A DNA stretch of 64,000 nt from Rhabdothermincola sediminis (lineage in GTDB: Bacteria > Actinomycetota > Acidimicrobiia > Acidimicrobiales > Acidimicrobilacustridaceae), in the NCBI RefSeq assembly GCF_014805525.1, contig NZ_JACFSZ010000018.1, positions 1-64,000 on the forward strand, in the 5' to 3' direction. The position numbers and the translations under genes are program-made. The notes under the pieces are model-generated. The model ran no database searches. It saw only the letters and a program-made list of their open reading frames with translations, and had not been told where the DNA came from. The number at the start of each line of letters is the position of its first letter. Within the stretch, counting starts at the first letter, position 1. Below, one piece after another: positions 13,897 through 26,862 of the stretch.

Positions 13897-15327
13897 TCAC
13901 CCTTCGTGCTGATCGCCAAGCGGCGGCGGCGTATGCGCAGCCTCTGGCTGCGTTGCCCACCACTCGTCCAGCCGGCGGAAGGCCTCCTCCCGCCCGAGCG
14001 GCCCCTGCTCCAGCCGCAGCTCCAGAAGGTGCTCCAGCGCCCGACCCACGAGGGGTCCCGGTTCGATGCTCAGATGAGCCATCACCTCCCGACCATCAAG
14101 GTCCGGCCGGATCGAGGCGAGCTCCTCCTTCGCGGACAGTTCCTCGATACGCCGCTCGAGCTCGTCCATGCGAGCGGCGAGGGCCCGGGCCTTGCGCTCG
14201 TTGCGGGTCGTGCAGTCACAGCGCGTGAGCTCGATCAGCTCGTCGAGCAATGGCCCGGCATCGCGAACGAAGCGGCGCACCGCACTGTCCGTCCAGCCCA
14301 TCTTGTACGTGTGGAACCGGAGGTGCAGGTACACGAGCCGGCTCACGGCCTCGACGTCCTCGTTGGAGTACCGCAGCTCACGCATGCGGTGTCGGGTCAT
14401 CCGGGCGCCCACCACCTCGTGATGATGGAAGGACACGCCGTTCTCGCCGTAGGCCCGCGTCCGGGGCTTGCCGACGTCGTGGAACAGGGCTGCGAGGCGA
14501 ACCAGCCGGCGAGGAGAGGTCTTGGCCACCACCGCGATGGTGTGGGTCAACACGTCCTTGTGGCGGTGGATCGGATCTTGCTCCAAGCGCATGGCGGGAA
14601 CCTCGGGCAGGAACTCCTCCATCAGCCCCGTGTCCACGAGGAACCACAGACCAGGTGACGGGTCCGCAACGACCAGCAGCTTGTCGAGCTCGTCCCGAAT
14701 CCGCTCCGCGGAGACGATCGCCAACCGGTGGTGCATCCGCTCTACCGCCGCCGTCAACTCGGGAACCGGGCGCAGCCCGTACCCGGCGATGAAACGCGCC
14801 GCCCGCAACATCCGCAGTGGGTCGTCGGCGAAGGACTCCTCCGGTGACAGAGGCGTCCGCAGTCGCGACGCCGCCAAGTCGGCCGCCCCGTCGAAGGGAT
14901 CGATCAGCTCCGGCTCAGGCAGCGCGAGCGCCATCGCGTTCACCGTGAAGTCACGGCGCGACAGGTCGCTCTCGACCGCATCCGCGAACCGCACGTCGGG
15001 CTTACGGGAATCCGGCACGTAAGCCTCGGCGCGATGGGTGGTGATCTCGAAGGTCCATTCCCCACGCTTGACGCCGATCGTCCCGAAGCGCTCCCCCTGG
15101 GTCCACACCGCGTCGGCCAGATCACGCACGAGCTGCTTGGTCTGTTCGGGGCGGGCGTCGGTGGTGAGGTCGATGTCACGATCGGCGCCCAGCTCGCGAC
15201 CGACGAGCAGGTCACGCACGATCCCACCTACGAGGTAGAGCCGGAACCCGGCCGCGGTGAAACGATCAGCGAAAGGTCGCGCCTGGTCGAGCACGGGTCG
15301 CAGCCGGTCCGGGATCACGGCGGGCAA
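13897..15327 (-). CDS. pcnA: CCA tRNA nucleotidyltransferase (PcnA/Cca family)
   Basis: The 476-residue enzyme adds CCA to tRNA 3' ends. The nucleotidyltransferase core shows LVGGIVRDLLVGRELGADRD and DIDLTT with the metal-binding Asp pair, the second SRRDFTVNAMA motif and the RMLRAARF tRNA-binding region. An HD domain follows, with LAALFHDVGKP. The length and HD domain match the mycobacterial PcnA type. The only tRNA in this window lacks an encoded CCA, so such an enzyme is required. It begins the syntenic block that leads to the origin. Confidence 0.95.
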   Translation of the reverse strand: MPAVIPDRLRPVLDQARPFADRFTAAGFRLYLVGGIVRDLLVGRELGADRDIDLTTDARPEQTKQLVRDLADAVWTQGERFGTIGVKRGEWTFEITTHRAEAYVPDSRKPDVRFADAVESDLSRRDFTVNAMALALPEPELIDPFDGAADLAASRLRTPLSPEESFADDPLRMLRAARFIAGYGLRPVPELTAAVERMHHRLAIVSAERIRDELDKLLVVADPSPGLWFLVDTGLMEEFLPEVPAMRLEQDPIHRHKDVLTHTIAVVAKTSPRRLVRLAALFHDVGKPRTRAYGENGVSFHHHEVVGARMTRHRMRELRYSNEDVEAVSRLVYLHLRFHTYKMGWTDSAVRRFVRDAGPLLDELIELTRCDCTTRNERKARALAARMDELERRIEELSAKEELASIRPDLDGREVMAHLSIEPGPLVGRALEHLLELRLEQGPLGREEAFRRLDEWWATQPEAAHTPPPLGDQHEG

Positions 15328-16466: not shown

Positions 16467-17192
16467 ATGGGAAAGATGGATCTGCTGCATCGGGGGTCCG
16501 AACGGCTCCGGATCACGCCGTGGCGCGGCGATCCGTCCGTCGCGCAACTGACCCCCACCGCGGGGATGGTTCCCACTGCGAGAGCGATCCGCCGTTCCCT
16601 CGACGCGCTCGCGGCGGAGGGCTACCGATCAGTCCTCACCTCCGCCTTGACGCTCGACGAGCAGTACCCGTTCCTCGAGGCCGGGTTCGGGGTGCACGAG
16701 CGCCTGCACCTCTTGCGCCACGATCTCCGTGACCTACCGGACGGTCCCTTGCCACCCGGGACGCGCCTGCGGCGCGGGCGCCGCCGTGATCGCACGCCGG
16801 TGCTCATGGTCGACGGTGCCGCATTCCAGCCCTTCTGGAGGTTCGACCAGGCGGGCTTCGACGACGCTCGCCAGGCAACCCCGTCATCGAGGTTCCGGGT
16901 CGTCGATGCTGGGGCGGTGGCCGCCTATGCCATCACCGGCCGGGCCGGTTCGGTGGGCTACCTGCAGCGCCTCGCCGTGCATCCCGACCATCAACGTCGC
17001 GGGCTCGGCACCGCGCTCGTCGCCGATGCCTTACGCTGGGCTCGCCGTCGAGGAAGCGCCTGGGTTCTGGTCAACACCCAGGAGACCAACCAGGACGCGC
17101 TGGCGCTCTACCTACGCCTCGGCTTCGTGCAGCAGCCCCACGGGCTGGCTGTGCTCGAGCACCCGCTCGATCGGCGCGGGAAGCGTGCATGA
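16467..17192 (+). CDS. GNAT-family N-acetyltransferase
   Basis: The 241-residue protein has a C-terminal GNAT domain: VGYLQRLAVHPDHQRRGLGTALV is the acetyl-CoA-binding motif A (R/Q-x-x-G-x-G/A), followed by NQDALALYLRLGF, the usual strand-helix motif B. The N-terminal 120 residues resemble a degenerate GNAT half, as in tandem acetyltransferases. Substrate not readable. Its stop overlaps the start of the DUF6049 gene (ATGA), so the two are translationally coupled. The start at 16467 has a weak GGATC context; the upstream frame runs through the opposite-strand deacetylase and is rejected. Confidence 0.85.
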   Translation: MGKMDLLHRGSERLRITPWRGDPSVAQLTPTAGMVPTARAIRRSLDALAAEGYRSVLTSALTLDEQYPFLEAGFGVHERLHLLRHDLRDLPDGPLPPGTRLRRGRRRDRTPVLMVDGAAFQPFWRFDQAGFDDARQATPSSRFRVVDAGAVAAYAITGRAGSVGYLQRLAVHPDHQRRGLGTALVADALRWARRRGSAWVLVNTQETNQDALALYLRLGFVQQPHGLAVLEHPLDRRGKRA

Positions 17193-19459
17193 CGCCTTCG
17201 ACCGGCCGAACCTGCCGGCCACGGCTCCGCTCGACCCCACTGCTGGTCACCCTGGCCACAATCTTCGCCTCGCTCGGCCTGGCGACCGTCAGACCGCTCG
17301 CAGGGGCAGGAGCCATACCTGAGCTTGCCGGCCCGGCCCGCCTCGAGCTGGTCGATCAGACGGCTTGGGTGGCGCCGGAAGGCACGTTCGAGCTCCGCCT
17401 CCGCATCCTCGATCCACCGCCCGAGGCGCGGCTCGCGGTCACGGTCCACCCCGCGGTGTCGTCACGCGCTCGCTTCGAGCAGTCCATCCGGGGGCAGAAC
17501 CTCGGCGCACCGCTGCGGCCGGGCCCACCGGCCTGGCCTCTCGACGCGCTGGCCGCAGGGGCCGACACCTACCGGGTGGCGGTGCCGGTCAGCACGCTGG
17601 CGACTCCCCCGTTCGGCGTCCGCCTCAGCTCGCCGGGGGTGTACCCCGTCAGCGTGGCGATCACCGACCGCGACGGCGGCCCGGTCACGCAGCTGGTGAC
17701 CCACCTCGTGCGGCTCCCCGCGAGCGGCTCGGCAGGGGTGCCGCTGGCGGTGTCCATCATCGCCCCGCTCGAGGCGGGCTCACCGTTGCGCCCGGACGGT
17801 TCGGTCCGGCTCAGCCGCGACGACCGCGAACGCCTCGGGAGCACGATCGCCGCTCTGGCGACCACGGTCGACGTACCACTCACCCTGGCGCCGTCTCCCG
17901 AGGTGATCGACGCGCTGGCCATCGCCCAACAACAGGGGGAACCGGATCTGCTCGGTCCCCTGGCTCGCAGCCTCGGCGCCCGCCAGGTCCTGCCCCGCCC
18001 CTACGCCACCATCGACCTTCCGGCCTGGACACGCGGCTCACAGACCGACCCGGACACCGACATCGGGCTGACCCGCCAGCTGGCCACCGGCAGCGAGGTG
18101 GTCGCTGCCCTGCTCGGCACCTGGCCCGACCCGAGGACCTGGCTCGCTGACCACACGATCGACGACGCCACTCTGGGCCGCCTGAGGGCCGCCGGGGTCT
18201 CCCAGGTCGTGCTACCCGCCGACCGGCTCGACGACGAGGGCGGGCGGGGAACCACGGCGGACCATCTCGCCTTCGACGTCCGCGACCGCGAAGGTGGGAC
18301 GCTGCAGGCGGTGCAGACCGATCCCAGCCTGGCGGAGCGGCTGCTCGCCACCTCCGATCCCGTCCTCAACGCCCACCTGGTGCTCGCTGACCTGGCGGTG
18401 CTCGCGCTCGAGCGCCCGTCCCAGTCGCGGGGTGCAGTCTTCTCTCCCCCCGGGAGCTTCGCGATCCCGCGTGCGAGCTGGGACGCGTTGCTCCAGGGCC
18501 TCTCTCACCGCTCCCCACCGGGAGCGGACCCCCTCGTGAGCCCGGTGACGCTCGACGACCTGTTCCGAGCGGTCGACATCGCCACCACCGGCCGAGCAGG
18601 CACCCGATCACCGCTGGTGCGCGAGCTTGCCGCCGCCTTCTCCGAAGGCGACGTCAGCACGCTGGCCGCCGACAGCGCGGCCATGTGGAGCCGGATCGAC
18701 TCGTTCGCATCGATGCTCGAGCCCCCGACGCCGGTGGAGCCAGGCGCCGCGGGCTCCGGTAGCGACCAGGGCGTTGTCGCGCCGAGCGTGGCCCGAGAGC
18801 TGGTCTGGCCGATGCGGCGCCTGGTTCTGGCCGCCGGCGCGGCCGACCTGGACGAGCCCGAGCGGGACGCCTTCCTCACCGCCGCCGATGTGGCCGTCCA
18901 GGCCCGGCTCGCGGCGATCACTCTTCCCGGGCCTCAACAGATCACGCTGACCGAGCGCACCAGCCGGGTCCCGCTCACCTTCGAGAACCAGCTCGATCAT
19001 GCGGTCACCGTGGAGGTGGCGCTGCAGAGCGAGAAGCTCGAGTTCCCGGGTGGCGACCTCCAGGTCCTCACACTGCCGCCGAAGGAGACCACCCGCTACG
19101 AGATCACCGTCGAGACCCGCTCCTCAGGTGCGTTCCCCATGGAGGTCACCATTCGCTCACCCGACCGAGGCCTGGTGCTGGGCGCCACCCGGTTCTCCGT
19201 GCGCTCGACGGCCATCTCGGGGATCGGGCTGCTGTTGTCCGCCGTGGCCGGCGCGTTCCTGCTGCTGTGGTGGGCGCGTCATTTCCGTGATGTGCGCCGG
19301 AGCCGGCGGCTGGTCTCCCCCAACCATCCCGCCTCGCGTCCGGTGAGCAGCCCCCGTTCCCCGAGTCCCACGGCGGGGTCCGCTACGCTCCCCCGATCGG
19401 TCGGCGCGGAGGGCGCCGCCAGCGGGGGAGACCATGCCCGGAGTCCAGATCGTCACTGA
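17189..19459 (+). CDS. DUF6049-like extracytoplasmic membrane protein
   Basis: The 756-residue product has an N-terminal hydrophobic signal segment (about 15-35), a large extracytoplasmic region of mixed beta and alpha composition, and one C-terminal membrane helix (ISGIGLLLSAVAGAFLLLWWA, about 680-700) followed by a basic Arg/Ser/Pro-rich cytoplasmic tail. This matches the DUF6049 protein found between pcnA and mviN in mycobacteria (Rv3909 type). Function unproven; its neighbours suggest a role in envelope assembly. Its end overlaps the start of DegV by 26 bases. Confidence 0.8.
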   Translation: MTPSTGRTCRPRLRSTPLLVTLATIFASLGLATVRPLAGAGAIPELAGPARLELVDQTAWVAPEGTFELRLRILDPPPEARLAVTVHPAVSSRARFEQSIRGQNLGAPLRPGPPAWPLDALAAGADTYRVAVPVSTLATPPFGVRLSSPGVYPVSVAITDRDGGPVTQLVTHLVRLPASGSAGVPLAVSIIAPLEAGSPLRPDGSVRLSRDDRERLGSTIAALATTVDVPLTLAPSPEVIDALAIAQQQGEPDLLGPLARSLGARQVLPRPYATIDLPAWTRGSQTDPDTDIGLTRQLATGSEVVAALLGTWPDPRTWLADHTIDDATLGRLRAAGVSQVVLPADRLDDEGGRGTTADHLAFDVRDREGGTLQAVQTDPSLAERLLATSDPVLNAHLVLADLAVLALERPSQSRGAVFSPPGSFAIPRASWDALLQGLSHRSPPGADPLVSPVTLDDLFRAVDIATTGRAGTRSPLVRELAAAFSEGDVSTLAADSAAMWSRIDSFASMLEPPTPVEPGAAGSGSDQGVVAPSVARELVWPMRRLVLAAGAADLDEPERDAFLTAADVAVQARLAAITLPGPQQITLTERTSRVPLTFENQLDHAVTVEVALQSEKLEFPGGDLQVLTLPPKETTRYEITVETRSSGAFPMEVTIRSPDRGLVLGATRFSVRSTAISGIGLLLSAVAGAFLLLWWARHFRDVRRSRRLVSPNHPASRPVSSPRSPSPTAGSATLPRSVGAEGAASGGDHARSPDRH

Positions 19460-20270
19460 CAGCGCCTGCGACCTCGAACCCGAGGAGGCCGACCGACACC
19501 GCATCCGAGTGGTACCGCTCTCCATACGATTCGGTGACCGGGAGTTCATCGACCGGGAGGAGCTCTCGGTCGAGGAGTTCTACGAACGGATGGCGGCGTC
19601 CGACACGTTGCCCGAGACCGCAGCGCCACCGCCGGGCAAGTTCGAGCAGGCTTTTCGGGACGCTGCCAACGACGGAGCCGACGCGGTGGTGTGCATCAAC
19701 CTGTCGAGCGCGTTGTCGGCCACGATGCAGTCGGCACAGAACGCGGCGGCCGCCGTGGCCGACGACATCGACGTGCGCATCGTCGATTCGAGGTCGATCA
19801 CCGGTGGCCTCGGGATCCAGGTCGTGGAAGCCGCGAAGGCTGCCGCCGACGGCAAGAGCGTCGACGACGTGGTGGCCGTCGTGGAGGATCTGGTTCCACG
19901 AACCGAGATCTACGGCGCTCTGGACACGCTTGAGAACCTCAAGAAGGGGGGGCGCATCGGCAACGCCCGAGCCCTGCTCGGTTCCATGTTGTCGTTCAAG
20001 CCGCTCATCCACATCGCCGACGGAGCGGTGGAAGAGGCCGGAAAGCCGCGGACCCGCAAGCGTGCGCTCGAGGCACTACGCGACAAGCTCTTCGCCGAAG
20101 GCGACGTGTCCCACCTGCGGGTCTGCCACGGCGAGGCCCCCGACCTCGAGGAGTTCCTGGAGCTCATCTCCCCCCGTTACCCACGCGAAGAGATCACCGT
20201 CTGCAAGATCGGCGCGGTGATCGGCACCCACGGCGGCCCTCGCATCATCGGTGTCTGCTACGTGAAGTAG
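19434..20270 (+). CDS. DegV-family fatty-acid-binding protein
   Basis: The 278-residue cytoplasmic protein has the DegV pattern: MPGVQIVTDSACDLEPEEA at the start, NLSSALSATMQSAQNAA in the middle, VDSRSITGGLG, and the late LKKGGRIGNARALLGSMLSFKPLI. In Firmicutes this family (FakB) presents fatty acids to a FakA kinase; no FakA is visible here. The start has a GGGGGAG site inside the previous gene. It is inserted between DUF6049 and the kinase, where mycobacteria have mviN. Confidence 0.92.
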   Translation: MPGVQIVTDSACDLEPEEADRHRIRVVPLSIRFGDREFIDREELSVEEFYERMAASDTLPETAAPPPGKFEQAFRDAANDGADAVVCINLSSALSATMQSAQNAAAAVADDIDVRIVDSRSITGGLGIQVVEAAKAAADGKSVDDVVAVVEDLVPRTEIYGALDTLENLKKGGRIGNARALLGSMLSFKPLIHIADGAVEEAGKPRTRKRALEALRDKLFAEGDVSHLRVCHGEAPDLEEFLELISPRYPREEITVCKIGAVIGTHGGPRIIGVCYVK

Positions 20271-20322: not shown

Positions 20323-21957
20323 GTGTCCGGTCCCGCCACCAGCCCGCCACCTGGCCCTCGGGGAGCCTCAGACGCGCCGGTCCCAGCGCGACCGGCCGCA
20401 CCTCACCCCGGTCTGATCCTCGCGGGCCGGTACGCCCTGCGGCACCTGATCGCCAAGGGCGGGATGGCTGAGGTCTGGGAGGGCGTCGACCACGTGCTCG
20501 AGCGGCCGGTCGCCCTCAAGCTGCTGCACGCGCACCTGTCCTCCGATCAGGCCTTCACCGCCCGGTTCCGGGCCGAGGCCATCGCCGCAGCCCGGCTCCG
20601 TCACCCCTCGATCGTGGCCATCTTCGACACCTGTCACGATCAGGGCCACGAGGCGATCGTCATGGAGCTCATTCGTGGAAGGACGGTGCGCGAGTTCCTC
20701 GACGAGCACGGACCCCTCGATCCCGACGACGCGATCCACCTCGGCACACAGGTCGCGGACGCCCTCACCGTCGCCCACCGTGCCGGAGTCATCCACCGCG
20801 ACATCAAGCCGGCGAACATCCTGTTGTGCGACGACGAGCGGGTCATGGTCACCGACTTCGGAATCGCCAAGGTGTACGGCGGGTCCGATCTGACCAGTAC
20901 CGGCACCATGCTCGGGACCGTGAAGTACCTGGCTCCCGAACAGGTCGCTGGCCGACCCGTTGACCCTCGCGCGGATCTGTACTCGCTCGGCGTGGTGCTC
21001 TACGAGTGCCTGACCGGACGGCCACCGTTCACCGGCGACGCGGCAGCGGCGGTCGCCCTCGCCCGGCTTCACCAACCGGTGCTGCCGGCGCGGGCCCTTC
21101 GCCCTGAGCTCCCCGAGCGCCTCGACCGTGTTCTGCTGCGGGTCCTGGCGAGAGAGCCCGACGATCGCTACCCGGACGCGCCTGCGTTCCGAGCGGCCCT
21201 GCTCGCAGCCGGCGCAGAGCCGAGGCCAGGCCCCGCTCCGAGCCTCGCAGGGGACCGGACGGCCATCACGGCTCGTCTCGCGGATCCCGACCCGACCTCC
21301 GTCTCGCCGGTCGCGGGAGCGGTGCCGACGGTCGCAGCGGCAGCGCCCACACCTCACCAGGTGCCGCCATCGCCGGCACGCCGCTCACGCCGGCGATGGG
21401 TGCTGGCTGCTGTCCTGGCGGGCGTGGCTGCCACGTCCATGGCTGTGGCGGCGGTCCTCGTGTCCCGTACCAGCGGCGACGAGATGCTGCTCCCCCGCCC
21501 GGGCCTCTCTGGTCGGGCGCCGGTGACGATCCCCATCAGCTCCGTGCAACCGTTCGACCCCGCCGGTGACGATCACGAGAACGATGCACAGGCGAACCTG
21601 GCCGTCGACGGTGACCCTTCGACTTCGTGGCGCACCGAGACCTACCAGACTCGCCAGTTCGGCAACCTCAAGGACGGTGTGGGCCTGGTGGTCGCGCTCC
21701 CCGCTGCTGCCCGGCTCGGTCGTCTCGAGGTGAGCTCGCCCACCAACGGGTGGGCTGCGTCGGTGCACGTGGCCGCGACCCTCCCGCCGGATCTCGCTGG
21801 CTGGGGCCGACCGGTGGACGCGTCCGAGGGGATCCAGGGTGATGCCACATTCGATCTACGTGGCACCTCCGGTGCCTTCGTACTCCTGTGGATCACCGAC
21901 CTCGGAGACGGGCCGGGCCGGGTGGAGGTCGAGGAACTGGCGGTGATCGGCCGCTGA
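20323..21957 (+). CDS. transmembrane Ser/Thr protein kinase with extracytoplasmic F5/8-type-like domain
   Basis: Of 544 residues, 35-295 form a complete Hanks-type kinase: the glycine loop AKGGMAEVW, Lys66 in VALKLL, HRDIKPANILL (158-168), DFG (178-180) and LAPEQ. A Pro/Ala-rich juxtamembrane linker, one helix (about 359-380) and an outer domain of about 150 residues follow. That outer domain (AVDGDPSTSWRTETY, GVGLVVALP) is like the discoidin-like tail of mycobacterial MviN. In mycobacteria MviN carries a catalytically dead kinase; here all catalytic residues are present and the MurJ membrane part is missing. Candidate target: the nearby CwlM-like protein. GTG start at 20323. Confidence 0.92.
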   Translation: MSGPATSPPPGPRGASDAPVPARPAAPHPGLILAGRYALRHLIAKGGMAEVWEGVDHVLERPVALKLLHAHLSSDQAFTARFRAEAIAAARLRHPSIVAIFDTCHDQGHEAIVMELIRGRTVREFLDEHGPLDPDDAIHLGTQVADALTVAHRAGVIHRDIKPANILLCDDERVMVTDFGIAKVYGGSDLTSTGTMLGTVKYLAPEQVAGRPVDPRADLYSLGVVLYECLTGRPPFTGDAAAAVALARLHQPVLPARALRPELPERLDRVLLRVLAREPDDRYPDAPAFRAALLAAGAEPRPGPAPSLAGDRTAITARLADPDPTSVSPVAGAVPTVAAAAPTPHQVPPSPARRSRRRWVLAAVLAGVAATSMAVAAVLVSRTSGDEMLLPRPGLSGRAPVTIPISSVQPFDPAGDDHENDAQANLAVDGDPSTSWRTETYQTRQFGNLKDGVGLVVALPAAARLGRLEVSSPTNGWAASVHVAATLPPDLAGWGRPVDASEGIQGDATFDLRGTSGAFVLLWITDLGDGPGRVEVEELAVIGR

Positions 21958-21978
21958 GACTCCCGCGAGGTGGGAAGG
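21942..21978. repeat. 37-bp direct repeat, left copy
   Basis: It covers the last codons and the stop of the kinase gene plus 21 bases beyond. An identical 37-base copy begins 413 bases downstream. The copies bound an insertion of 376 bases. Because one copy overlaps a gene end, the pair could be attachment-site-like or the trace of a duplication. Confidence 0.9.
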
Positions 21979-22354: not shown

Positions 22355-22359
22355 GGTGA
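22033..22359 (+). pseudogene. truncated open frame in the insertion
   Basis: From the GTG at 22033 (site GAGGAGGAG nine bases upstream) the first 50 residues look protein-like: WFDLSEVFDDIEEARRKARS, then WDIAGGREVPTGG. Reading upstream without a start, the same style continues (NLHFGVWTEEETGDVW) up to a stop at the repeat boundary, so this may be the tail of a longer gene. The last 55 codons overlap the next open frame and have shadow composition. Most likely a decayed fragment; no family recognised. Confidence 0.35.
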
Positions 22360-22402
22360 TCGGCCGCTGAGACTCCCGCGAGGTGGGAAGGGGCACCGCT
22401 AG
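22199..22402 (+). CDS. small acidic protein, unknown
   Basis: A 67-residue open frame begins at GTG 22199 with a perfect GGAGGAGG site five bases upstream. It starts MNRKTFKVPENWQEMTPEEK and has an acidic amphipathic stretch, then runs into the second 37-bp repeat, which encodes its basic tail (PLRLPRGGKGHR). The clean ribosome binding site argues for real expression. No family recognised. The tail was presumably acquired from the repeat. Confidence 0.45.
   Translation: MNRKTFKVPENWQEMTPEEKDEFLEAVLDEAIGPVQEQPSLQPSTPDDESEAGDRPLRLPRGGKGHR
22355..22391. repeat. 37-bp direct repeat, right copy
   Basis: This copy is identical over 37 bases to 21942-21978, which spans the kinase stop codon. It ends 50 bases before the sigma factor start. 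See the left copy. Confidence 0.9.
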
Positions 22403-22441: not shown

Positions 22442-22981
22442 GTGTCCGCCGCTCAGGCGGGTGGCCGGGACGCGCTCGAGGCCCTGCTGCGCCGGCACTA
22501 CGACCGCATCCATGCCCTCTGCCGCCGTCTCACCGGCCACGACGAGGACGCGCTCGACGCCACCCAGGAAGCCCTCCTTGCGATCGTGCGGGGGCTCGAC
22601 CGATTCGACGGACGGGCCGCGTTCAGCACGTGGAGCTACCGGGTGGCGACCAACACCTGCCTCGACCAGCTCCGCCGACGGAGGCGGCGCCCCGAGCCCG
22701 CTCCGCGGGACACGGCCACTGACGACCCGGCGGTCCCGAGCTTCGACCAACTCCTGAGCGACCGCCTGGCCATCGACGAGGTGCTCGCCACCCTGGCACC
22801 CGAGTTCCGGGCCGCGGTCGTCCTTCGCGACGTGCTGGGGCTCGACTACGCCACGATCGGCGAGGTGTTGGACATCCCACCGGGCACGGTACGGTCTCGC
22901 ATCGCCCGGGGCCGAGCCGCGCTCGCGGATCAGCTCGGGAACCTCAATCCCTCCGTCGACGTCCCAACAGACAGACCATGA
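22442..22981 (+). CDS. ECF-type RNA polymerase sigma factor (SigM-like position)
   Basis: The 179-residue protein has sigma region 2 (LLRRHYDRIHALCRRLTG, DALDATQEALLAIVRGLDRFDGRAAFSTW with the -10-recognising region) and region 4 (LAPEFRAAVVLRDVLGLDYATIGEVLDIPPGTVRSRIARGR). It lacks region 3, as ECF factors do. It directs transcription of a stress regulon and occupies the sigM position of mycobacteria. The anti-sigma gene overlaps its stop (ATGA). The start is uncertain: GTG 22442 is the first usable codon, while a GGGGGGAGG lies 17 bases further up. Confidence 0.92.
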   Translation: MSAAQAGGRDALEALLRRHYDRIHALCRRLTGHDEDALDATQEALLAIVRGLDRFDGRAAFSTWSYRVATNTCLDQLRRRRRRPEPAPRDTATDDPAVPSFDQLLSDRLAIDEVLATLAPEFRAAVVLRDVLGLDYATIGEVLDIPPGTVRSRIARGRAALADQLGNLNPSVDVPTDRP

Positions 22982-23883
22982 CGGACGTGACCCCCCCACA
23001 CCTTCCCCCCGACGACGAGCTCGTCTCCGCGGTCCTCGACGGTGAGGCGTCGGCGGAGGAGGAGGCCCAGGTGCTCGCAGACCCTGACGCCCGGGAACGC
23101 TTGGAGCGCTTTCGGGAGCTCGCAGCCCGCCTCCGCACCCCGGTCGCCCCATTGGAACCCGCGGTGCGAGCACAGCTCATCGACCGCGCTCTCGCAGCTC
23201 GTCCCAGCCACGGCCGCCACGAGGACCCCGACCCTGCAGCGCACGGTCGGGACCAGGCATTGCCCCCTCCGGGGCCGGACCGACACCCGGCAATGCTCGC
23301 TGCCAGGTCTGCGTTGGCCATCGCCGCCGCCGTGGCGGTGGCGATCGCCACGTTCGCTCTGCTCCGCTGGGACCGCACGGCGAGCCACACCGACGTCGCG
23401 TCCGGCCCTCAGCCGGACCGTACGGAGACCTTCGCGGAGGTGGGCGCCGAAATCCGTGGTGGGACCTCCCCACGCGACGCTGCCACCCCCGAACCAACCG
23501 CTTCCGGCGAGGAGCGCACACCGGAGGCGGCGCCGATCGGCGAGCCCCAGCTCGGGACGTTCACCAACGCGGAGGATCTCCGGCAGGCGGTCCGCGAGGC
23601 CTACGGGACCACTGGCTCGACCGCCCAGACCCCGAGCGGCACCGCACCGGATCGGCGAGCCTCCGACCTTCCGGCGAACACCGCCACGATGGGTCCGTCG
23701 CCTTGCGCACCCCTCGCCAGGACCACCGAACCCTCGCTCGGCCCATGGGTGTATGCGGCTGGCCTGACCTATCGGGGCGTAACGGCGTATCTCGACGTGT
23801 TCGCTCCCGGCGACGGCTCTCCTGCGATCGTCGTGGTCACGGCGGTGGAAGGTTGCCGCATCCTTGAGCGATTCACGCTCTGA
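22978..23883 (+). CDS. membrane anti-sigma factor
   Basis: The 301-residue protein overlaps the sigma gene by four bases. The N-terminal part (DDELVSAVLDGEASAEEEAQVL) is the usual cytoplasmic helical sigma-binding domain, without the HxxxCxxC zinc motif. One membrane helix follows (about 106-127), then an extracytoplasmic Pro/Thr/Glu-rich linker and a small C-terminal domain (about 230-301) with two Cys that could be redox-linked. It probably holds the ECF factor inactive at the membrane until an envelope signal arrives. The adjacent trxB-trxA genes make a redox signal plausible, as proposed for sigM regions. Confidence 0.85.
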   Translation: MTDVTPPHLPPDDELVSAVLDGEASAEEEAQVLADPDARERLERFRELAARLRTPVAPLEPAVRAQLIDRALAARPSHGRHEDPDPAAHGRDQALPPPGPDRHPAMLAARSALAIAAAVAVAIATFALLRWDRTASHTDVASGPQPDRTETFAEVGAEIRGGTSPRDAATPEPTASGEERTPEAAPIGEPQLGTFTNAEDLRQAVREAYGTTGSTAQTPSGTAPDRRASDLPANTATMGPSPCAPLARTTEPSLGPWVYAAGLTYRGVTAYLDVFAPGDGSPAIVVVTAVEGCRILERFTL

Positions 23884-24308: not shown

Positions 24309-24401
24309 CGGATACCCCCGGGAATAGCTCTGCCCACGACCCGTTTGCGGGGACACCTCCGTGACCAGCTGCCAGGACCACTCCACCGTGGAAGGACTCA
24401 C

Positions 24402-25367
24402 ATGACGACCGACGTACGCAACGTCATCATCATCGGCTCCGGTCCCGCGGGCCTGACCGCAGCCATCTACACCGCCAGGGCCAACCTCCACCCCCTCGTG
24501 ATCGAGGGCGAGCCGTCATCGACCAGCGATCAACCCGGTGGCCAGCTCATGCTCACTACCGAGGTCGAGAACTTCCCCGGCTTCCCGGAAGGCATCATGG
24601 GCCCCGAGCTCATGTCCCGCTTCCGCGACCAGGCTCTGCGGTTCGGAGCAGAGATCGTCACCGAGCGGGTCACGAGAGTCGACCTGTCGAGCAGGCCGTT
24701 CGGGGTCTGGGTGGGTGACCCCCAAGCCGAGCAGCCCACCTACCGCAGCCGCGTCGTCATCGTGTCCACCGGGGCCCGCTCGCTCATGCTGGGTCTCGAG
24801 GGTGAGCGACGCCTGCTCGGCCACGGCGTCTCGACCTGTGCCACCTGCGACGGTTTCTTCTTCCGGGGTCAGCACATCGCAGTCGTCGGAGGTGGCGATT
24901 CGGCGGTCGAAGAAGCCACGTTCCTCACGAAGTTCGCCGAGAAGGTCACGCTCATCCACCGGCGTGACGAGCTGCGGGCCTCGAAGATCATGCAGGAACG
25001 AGCCTTCGCCAATCCCAAGATCGAGATCCTCTGGAACCACGTGGTCGACGAGGTGCTGGGGACGACCACCGTCGAAGGCCTCAAGGTTCGCAACGTCCTC
25101 ACCGGCGAGGTCTCCGAGCTCGCCGTGACCGGCCTGTTCGTGGCGATCGGCCACCAGCCCAACACCGACCTGTTCAAGGGACAGCTGGAGATGGAGGACA
25201 CGGGATACCTGATCACCCGCGAGGGCACGCGTACCAACGTCGAAGGGGTCTTCGCGTGCGGTGACGTCCAGGACCACGTCTACCGCCAGGCGATCACCGC
25301 TGCCGGCTCAGGGTGCATGGCCGCTATCGACGCCGAGCGGTGGCTGGAGGCACAGCCCCATCCATGA
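24402..25367 (+). CDS. trxB: thioredoxin reductase
   Basis: A 321-residue flavoprotein with FAD motif IIIGSGPAGLTAAIYTAR, redox pair CATC (STCATCDGFFF), NADPH motif VVGGGDSAVEEA and the late GVFACGDVQDHVYRQAITAAGSGCMAA. It reduces thioredoxin with NADPH. The ATG at 24402 has a GGAAGGA site. It precedes trxA as in the mycobacterial trxB2-trxC pair. Confidence 0.97.
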   Translation: MTTDVRNVIIIGSGPAGLTAAIYTARANLHPLVIEGEPSSTSDQPGGQLMLTTEVENFPGFPEGIMGPELMSRFRDQALRFGAEIVTERVTRVDLSSRPFGVWVGDPQAEQPTYRSRVVIVSTGARSLMLGLEGERRLLGHGVSTCATCDGFFFRGQHIAVVGGGDSAVEEATFLTKFAEKVTLIHRRDELRASKIMQERAFANPKIEILWNHVVDEVLGTTTVEGLKVRNVLTGEVSELAVTGLFVAIGHQPNTDLFKGQLEMEDTGYLITREGTRTNVEGVFACGDVQDHVYRQAITAAGSGCMAAIDAERWLEAQPHP

Positions 25368-25483
25368 GCGGATCGGTATCGCGCTACGGTGAGCGCTGCG
25401 ATGACGCGTCGGCGCGCACGGAATGTCGGCCGCGGTCTGCACGTTGATGTGAGTCCCGCTCGTAGCCCTAGAAGGATCCAGTG

Positions 25484-25807
25484 ATGTCCGTATCCGTCAC
25501 CACGCTCTCCGACGCCACCTTCGATGAAGAGGTGCTCGGGGCCGATCAGCCGGTCCTCGTCGATTTCTGGGCCGAGTGGTGCGGACCCTGCAAGATGATC
25601 GCCCCCGTCCTCGAGGAGATCGCCGCCGAACACCCCGGTCTGCGGGTCGCCAAGCTGAACGTGGACGACAACCCTGACATCCCACTCCGCTTTTCGGTGA
25701 TGAGTATCCCAACGCTTATCGTTTTCAAAGATGGCAAGGAGGCGACCCGTATCGTCGGAGCCAGGGGCAAGGCGCAGCTCGTACAGGAGTTGAGCCAGTT
25801 CCTCTGA
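25484..25807 (+). CDS. trxA: thioredoxin
   Basis: A 107-residue thioredoxin with VLVDFWAEWCGPCKMIAPVLEEIA, including the WCGPC active site, and the cis-proline segment SIPTLIVF. It is a general disulphide reductant. The ATG at 25484 is preferred over the GTG one codon before, because the GAAGGA site is then seven bases away. Called trxC in mycobacteria at the same position. Confidence 0.96.
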   Translation: MSVSVTTLSDATFDEEVLGADQPVLVDFWAEWCGPCKMIAPVLEEIAAEHPGLRVAKLNVDDNPDIPLRFSVMSIPTLIVFKDGKEATRIVGARGKAQLVQELSQFL

Positions 25808-25854: not shown

Positions 25855-26862
25855 GTGCCTGAGCGTCCCACCTCTGCGAGCCCGACCACCCTTCCGTTGC
25901 TGCCCGACGCCTGCGGCGAAGCGGTGCGCGACCTCCAGCAGCGGCTCACCGCGCTGGGCCAGGAGATCGATCCCGGCGAGCTGGGAACGTTCGGTCCGAG
26001 CACCGAACGGGCCGTGCGGCGATTCCAGGAGAGCCGGGGTCTCCTGGTCAACGGCTCGTGCGATGCGCCGACGTGGGCGGCGTTGGTGGAAGCGGGCTAC
26101 CGACTCGGTGATCGGCTGCTCTACCACCGCAACCCGATGCTCCGCGGCGATGACGTGGCCGCTCTCCAGTTGCGGCTCGGAGCGCTGGGATTCGACGCCG
26201 GCCGCGTGGACGGCATCTTCGGCCCCAACACCGAAGCCGCCTTGAAGGACTTCCAGCGAAACACCGGACTCACGACCGACGGGGTCTGCGGGCGCGACGT
26301 GCTCGCCACGCTCGATCGGCTCGGCGGCCGCGTCGACCACAACTCAAACGTTGCCGGGGTCCGCGAACGTGACCGTCTCCGGCACTCGCCGCGTGCGCTC
26401 CATGACCGCCGAGTCGCTATCGGCGACGGGGGTGGACTGGAGGTGGTGGTCAGCGCCATGGCCAGGGATCTGCAGGGCAAGGGCGCGGTGGTGGCCGTGC
26501 TCAACCATCCTGACCCGTCGATCCACGCCCGGGAAGCCAACGAGTTCGACGCTGACGTCTACCTCGGGCTCGGCTTCGGTGACCAGGATGTCTGCCGATG
26601 CACCTACTACGCCACGACGGGCTTCGAGAGCGCCGGTGGGCATCACCTAGCTGATGTCCTCACCACCACCCTCCACCGGCAAGCCGGACTCCCCGTCTCT
26701 GAGAGCCGGGCGATGCGATTGCCGATCCTCCGGGAGACCCGGATGCCCGCCGTGATGTGCTACCTGGGACCAGTGGATCAGGTGGTCGCCCGCACCGCCG
26801 CCGTCGCCGAAGCCCTGGTCACCGGGCTGATCCAGTGGGTGGAGGATCCGGTCGTCACGTGA
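25855..26862 (+). CDS. cwlM: CwlM-like peptidoglycan-binding / degenerate amidase protein
   Basis: The 335-residue protein has two peptidoglycan-binding domains (about 17-80 with TFGPSTERAVRRFQ; 95-155 with DGIFGPNTEAALKDFQ) and an Amidase_3-like domain (about 180-330). The zinc motif expected at the start of the last domain (DPGHGG) reads AIGDGGG, and the later His ligands are not recognisable. In mycobacteria CwlM is a cytoplasmic, non-enzymatic activator of MurA controlled by PknB phosphorylation; a similar regulatory role fits this degenerate domain. No signal peptide. It is convergent with parB. GTG start at 25855. Confidence 0.88.
   Translation: MPERPTSASPTTLPLLPDACGEAVRDLQQRLTALGQEIDPGELGTFGPSTERAVRRFQESRGLLVNGSCDAPTWAALVEAGYRLGDRLLYHRNPMLRGDDVAALQLRLGALGFDAGRVDGIFGPNTEAALKDFQRNTGLTTDGVCGRDVLATLDRLGGRVDHNSNVAGVRERDRLRHSPRALHDRRVAIGDGGGLEVVVSAMARDLQGKGAVVAVLNHPDPSIHAREANEFDADVYLGLGFGDQDVCRCTYYATTGFESAGGHHLADVLTTTLHRQAGLPVSESRAMRLPILRETRMPAVMCYLGPVDQVVARTAAVAEALVTGLIQWVEDPVVT

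Follow-up and report, generated by a model that had tools for sequence, protein, structure and literature searches.

Regulation of mycobacterial cell-wall synthesis by the MviN pseudokinase is well known. Mtb MviN is reported to act as a scaffold for docking that PknB phosphorylates, and Thr947 is reported as its PknB/FhaA site (Gee et al., cited in PMC10166564). The pseudokinase has been reported to be dispensable in mycobacteria (PMC6180346) but appears to be essential in C. diphtheriae (PMC10166564). Two general statements have been made about the family: that the extended pseudokinase domain is present only in arabinogalactan-bearing organisms (a C. diphtheriae study of 2023, PMC10166564), and that other ActPs3 members are without a carbohydrate-binding domain (a pseudokinase review of 2025, PMC12599244). 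Among open-licence publications we found no description of a live MviN-type orthologue, and in the accessible papers no explanation of the origin of the MviN pseudokinase.

Gene order at the MviN slot

We analysed a window (the whole stretch of DNA, 64,000 nucleotides) of Rhabdothermincola sediminis, to whose family Ca. Microthrix sp. UBA4742 (L197) is the closest named relative. A kinase gene lies here in the position of mviN, i.e. between a DUF6049-like gene and sigM-trxB-trxA-cwlM (the slot; Table 1). The local order is pcnA (reverse strand), HDAC-like (reverse strand), GNAT, DUF6049, DegV, kinase, sigM, anti-sigma-like, holin-like, trxB, trxA and cwlM-like, with parB/parA following on the opposite strand. 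The slot order is repeated in most of the 20 same-order genomes first examined, L078 being an exception, and its core (pcnA, a kinase or pseudokinase, sigM and trxB) recurs in numerous families elsewhere in the phylum.

Table 1. Features of the slot and of the kinase that it encodes
Feature	Position in window	Strand	Remarks
pcnA-like CCA-adding enzyme	13897..15327	-	left end of conserved slot; homologous ORF in relatives' slot; name from sequence
DUF6049 membrane protein	17189..19459	+	overlaps DegV by 26 bases here; in relatives, murJ directly after
DegV family protein	19434..20270	+	adjoins kinase across the order
Slot kinase	20323..21957	+	544 aa, GTG start; ORF and coordinates as in the first-pass annotation
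PknB-like kinase domain, aa 39-283	20437..21171	+	K66, H158-R159-D160, N165, D178-F179-G180 intact
Cytoplasmic juxtamembrane linker, aa 300-356	21220..21390	+	low-confidence region of model; D-R-T-A-I-T Thr patch
Single transmembrane helix, aa 357-383	21391..21471	+	AlphaFold
Extracytoplasmic CBM32/F5-8C-fold tail	21523..21954	+	homologue of MviN C-terminal domain
ECF sigma factor, SigM-like	22442..22981	+	
Anti-sigma-like protein	22978..23883	+	weak RseA_N / zf-HC2 / antisigma matches
trxB	24345..25367	+	
trxA	25481..25807	+	
CwlM-like protein, two PG-binding repeats	25855..26862	+	

Across Actinomycetota the slot is found in four states: an active kinase with murJ; an active kinase without murJ, as here; a separate pseudokinase beside murJ, which is the Streptomyces-like state; and a pseudokinase fused to MurJ, in Mycobacteriaceae and Rhodococcus. 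The first-pass annotation had stated that the mycobacterial slot holds mviN, with MurJ joined to a dead kinase and a tail, and this was confirmed at L138 and L140-L144, where a single frame of 1198-1501 aa encodes all three parts. The solved structure of the Mtb MviN pseudokinase (3OTV/3UQC/3OUN) is matched by L138 at 2e-149, and the Rhodococcus zopfii locus (L238) carries the same MurJ-pseudokinase-tail fusion.

Two further features of the locus were recorded. A perfect 37-bp direct repeat (21942-21978 and 22355-22391), the first copy of which spans the kinase stop codon, encloses 376 bp between the kinase and sigM, with a small ORF inside that matches DUF7167 weakly. When the genome was searched with 450 bp covering the repeats, no further copy of the enclosed segment appeared; the segment resembles a small insertion whose ends have been duplicated. 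In the CwlM-like protein Amidase_3 was not matched at E 0.1, and the amidase portion seems degraded, which would suit a purely regulatory role.

A putative receptor kinase with complete catalytic residues

Pfam identifies a Pkinase domain in the slot ORF (E 2.9e-46 at aa 39-283). The aligned catalytic positions K66, D160, N165, D178 and G180 are all kept, giving the set KDNDG against TIRYA in MviN, the latter matching the published degenerate motifs VALT/LSIDHPSR/Y (PMC12599244). The slot kinase has the conserved motifs and the fold of a Hanks-type Ser/Thr kinase, and not the degenerate VAIK/HRD/DFG of MviN/ActPs3. The first-pass annotation had claimed an active kinase with intact Lys66, HRD and DFG; ORF, coordinates and residues were all confirmed. 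An AlphaFold model (32 relatives, mean pLDDT 82.9) consists of the kinase domain, a disordered linker, a single helix (357-383) and a tail folded as a beta-sandwich, and its kinase part matches the structure of PknB at 42% identity with a TM-score of 0.93 on the target. No PASTA repeats were matched in the ORF or at its locus, and the NF033483 score (376 bits) falls below the cut-off of 450. From its sequence, then, the gene encodes a predicted receptor-type membrane protein kinase that keeps the full catalytic set and has an outer domain resembling sugar-binding domains.

The outer domain is homologous to the MviN tail

The slot kinase carries an MviN-type, carbohydrate-binding-like C-terminal outer domain. 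This tail, described earlier as of the same kind as that of MviN, aligns with the R. zopfii MviN tail by BLASTP (32% identity, E 3e-12) and with a profile of four mycobacterial/Rhodococcus tails by hhalign (99.7%, E 9.2e-26). Modelled alone (AlphaFold, pLDDT 95.5) it takes the CBM32/F5-8C jelly-roll fold, and Foldseek places it among CBM32 domains, the best match being the CBM32 of AlyQ (E 3e-7). No Pfam model reaches its cut-off on the tail, CBM_AftD matching only sub-threshold. The tail profile finds matches in 205 of 396 Actinomycetota genomes, mostly one in each.

Some of these tails sit outside the slot. At L139 (5821-7953) and L145 (3995-6268), mycobacterial loci, extra active kinases carry tails that branch within the MviN tails on a kinase domain unrelated to that of the slot kinases, an apparent tail transfer. 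Several other families show a second conserved arrangement, in which a non-slot kinase bearing a related tail and a PASTA-type kinase lie close together but on different strands (L152, L154, L162-L165, L167, L170, L171, L180 and L181).

Active slot kinases form one clade, and catalysis was repeatedly lost at the locus

The kinase tree unites every one of the 69 sampled active slot kinases in a single clade (SH-aLRT 97) that also holds 5 non-slot rows; the PASTA kinases and the majority of the remaining tail-bearing kinases lie outside it. This bears on whether an ordinary PknB-like kinase might have gained a CBM-like tail independently and landed in the slot, its likeness to MviN being convergent. 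Tails can evidently be shuffled, since related ones occur on kinases outside the slot, including the MviN-type tails of L139 and L145 on an unrelated kinase domain. However, the single slot-kinase clade, the common gene order, a tail homology well beyond a common fold, and a juxtamembrane motif shared with slot pseudokinases make convergence very improbable. The motif in question, [ST]E..W, occurs in 32 of the 69 active slot kinases (1.1 in shuffles) and also in the slot pseudokinases L124, L125 and L227, and as a sequence feature outside the kinase core it gives a separate link between dead and live forms. A Streptomyces-like pseudokinase profile clearly fits slot kinases best (163.0, against 126.1 for PASTA kinases); the MviN pseudokinase domain alone is too decayed to separate the two, scoring no better against slot kinases outside the order (122.7) than against PASTA kinases (125.1).

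Catalytic state and the presence of an adjacent murJ were both scored at 102 slot loci for which upstream DNA was available; the kinase is catalytically intact at 62 of them and degenerate at 40. Placed on a tail tree that excludes the kinase columns, the active and dead states need 13 changes, which we read as several to about a dozen losses because many branches of that tree, including deep ones, are weakly supported. We also asked whether dead kinases tend to occur beside murJ. The raw counts are suggestive (dead with murJ, 31; live with murJ, 24; dead without, 9; live without, 38), but supported branches provide only one independent pair, and we do not claim such a tendency.

murJ has left the slot in this branch

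The first-pass annotation had noted an absence of MurJ helices here, and no MurJ match was indeed found in the slot or within the kinase ORF; the kinase is not fused to the 14-TM MurJ domain that characterizes MviN. It had also proposed a genome-wide search for murJ, and this locates MurJ on another contig, with no MurJ-kinase fusion found anywhere. The one good MurJ (543 aa, E 6e-87, contig C7) is unfused and without a kinase, and is followed by a separate PspA-like ORF. A second, weak match (C1, E 4e-8) overlaps an ORF without a kinase that reads, by eye, as a MATE-like transporter.

In many relatives the slot reads DUF6049-murJ-DegV-kinase-sigM. At several same-order loci (L063, L064, L072, L073, L080, L193-L196, L201, L204, L226, L233 and L236) murJ is flanked by DUF6049 and DegV, and an active kinase follows downstream. 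Because DegV and the kinase adjoin murJ in many same-order genomes, we conclude that murJ left an older murJ-DegV-kinase cluster. That departure probably happened once, as the 32-row sub-clade of the kinase tree that includes the slot kinase is uniformly without a slot murJ (0 of 32 rows; the support for the sub-clade is only 84). The MurJ tree joins the genome's MurJ to same-order MurJs from outside the slot (97); depending on the rooting, it would be either the slot gene after a move or an ancient paralogue. As a separate observation, the murJ genes seen in the slot fall into two MurJ-family types that are very divergent, with ~3 changes per site on the branch between them; the rarer type predominates at L073, L076, L193-L196, L201, L223, L227, L146, L148, L149, L151, L159-L161 and L173.

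These data also bear on the earlier proposal in which MurJ gave way to DegV and the kinase and lipid II flipping came under their control. The slot has no murJ here and the kinase shares its tail with MviN, as that proposal would have it. Yet murJ, DegV and the kinase coexist in many relatives' slots, where DegV and the kinase are old residents, and the genome has a full-length murJ elsewhere. Replacement of MurJ by the pair is ruled out by synteny, and we regard the proposal as a whole as improbable. The slot kinase is still a possible alternative regulator of lipid II flipping in a genome that keeps a separate murJ, a PASTA kinase and FHA proteins; with murJ unlinked, MurJ as its target is not implied by position.

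Loss of catalysis probably preceded fusion

Family f124 belongs to the same order as Mycobacteriaceae (f91). Every match listed for f124 falls within a frame of 522-637 aa, which makes the gene separate from murJ; at L182 the murJ stop codon is visible ahead of the kinase frame. Most of the f124 loci examined carry VALT, with Thr replacing the beta-3 Lys as in MviN. The f91 frames measure 1198-1523 aa, and family f128 also has long frames, which may be fusions as well. Since the f124 pseudokinases are unfused and already carry the Lys-to-Thr change, catalysis was probably lost before fusion.

The relevance of this locus to how the MviN fusion arose, suggested earlier, is supported by the same slot, the same tail and a live, unfused kinase. 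We consider it likely that the slot gene is a free, catalytically intact orthologue of the dead, fused kinase-TM-tail module of mycobacteria; the sequence basis is the shared locus, the homologous tail, the single active clade, the repeated loss of catalysis and the departure of murJ in the genome's branch. More tentatively, at somewhat under even chances, the MviN module may be a relic of an ancient, phylum-wide envelope receptor kinase that coupled glycan sensing to lipid II export beside murJ. If its scaffold role outlived catalysis, the kinase could have died many times independently at one locus, with fusion in Mycobacteriaceae only after its death, and Acidimicrobiia like the present one would keep the live ancestor.

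A possible mechanism

R36, L59, D102 and T191 of the slot kinase are invariant in 32 homologues. By hand alignment we match them to PknB R10, L33, D76 and T171, the first three of which are residues of the back-to-back dimer. In the linker, an Asp-x-Thr patch is present in 44 of the 69 active slot kinases (16 in shuffles), reading DRTAIT in the slot kinase and DRTEIL or similar in mycobacterial MviN; in MviN the patch probably marks where the PknB/FhaA site Thr947 lies. Contig C11 of the genome encodes both FHA proteins (at 84249 and 84795) and a kinase with three PASTA repeats.

Because the dimer and loop residues are invariant and the Asp-x-Thr patch is enriched, we favour a model of ligand-dependent dimerization, autophosphorylation and FHA recruitment. 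The CBM32-fold outer domain would bind an envelope glycan or precursor, and binding would favour a PknB-type back-to-back dimer. The dimer would trans-phosphorylate its activation loop and juxtamembrane threonines, and the phosphothreonines would recruit FHA partners and so tune envelope synthesis. Where catalysis is gone, the domain would live on as a scaffold for docking, with PknB phosphorylating it, as reported for Mtb MviN. We put this whole scheme, a glycan-sensing, dimerizing receptor kinase that tunes envelope synthesis, at about an even chance.

Some loci lack parts of the module. In the genome's own family, the tail profile finds nothing in the slot kinases L252-L258 (frames 386-532 aa), and the same-order loci L262-L265 and L267-L271 read DUF6049-murJ-DegV-holin-trxB without kinase and sigM, an apparent joint loss. 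As tail-less slot kinases and kinase-less murJ/DegV loci exist, the module is better seen as a modulator than as an essential part, which agrees with the mycobacterial reports, though C. diphtheriae differs. The joint loss (some ten same-order loci without kinase and sigM yet with murJ and DegV) and the position of the kinase directly upstream of sigM would also suit a kinase that senses the envelope and phosphorylates SigM or the anti-sigma factor. Such a partnership seems unlikely: the kinase is kept where no sigM was found at the slot (L071, L075 and L253-L258), sigM is kept without the kinase (L259 and L261), and SigM is already paired with its own anti-sigma-like protein.

Comparison with described systems

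Kinase-TM-tail genes are found at the same locus phylum-wide, many of them with live kinases. As free genes they contradict, as general rules, both the restriction to arabinogalactan-bearing organisms (PMC10166564) and the absence of a carbohydrate-binding domain (PMC12599244). They form a natural series of genes that are live and unfused, dead but still unfused, or dead and fused, in which the role of the module, its scaffolding residues and sensing by the outer domain can be tested in organisms that allow a direct assay of the kinase.

With PknB/PknA and the PASTA Ser/Thr kinases (Stk1, NF033483) the slot kinase has in common the kinase fold, a single TM helix, an outer domain and an activation-loop Thr. 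It differs in having no PASTA repeats, and the genome's own PASTA kinases sit on other contigs. The predicted fold of its tail is that of CBM32 and F5-8 type C (discoidin) domains, with an identity of only 10-17%. The Streptomyces-like slot pseudokinases (L134-L137) share the slot, the tail family, a similar size and the unfused state, but they are catalytically degenerate with an adjacent murJ, where the slot kinase is intact. With Mtb MviN (ActPs3) it shares the locus, the order of kinase domain, TM and CBM-like tail, and a homologous tail, and its dimer-face residues L59/D102 align by hand with MviN L750/D793; unlike MviN, it is unfused, its catalytic residues and activation loop are present, and murJ is absent from its slot.
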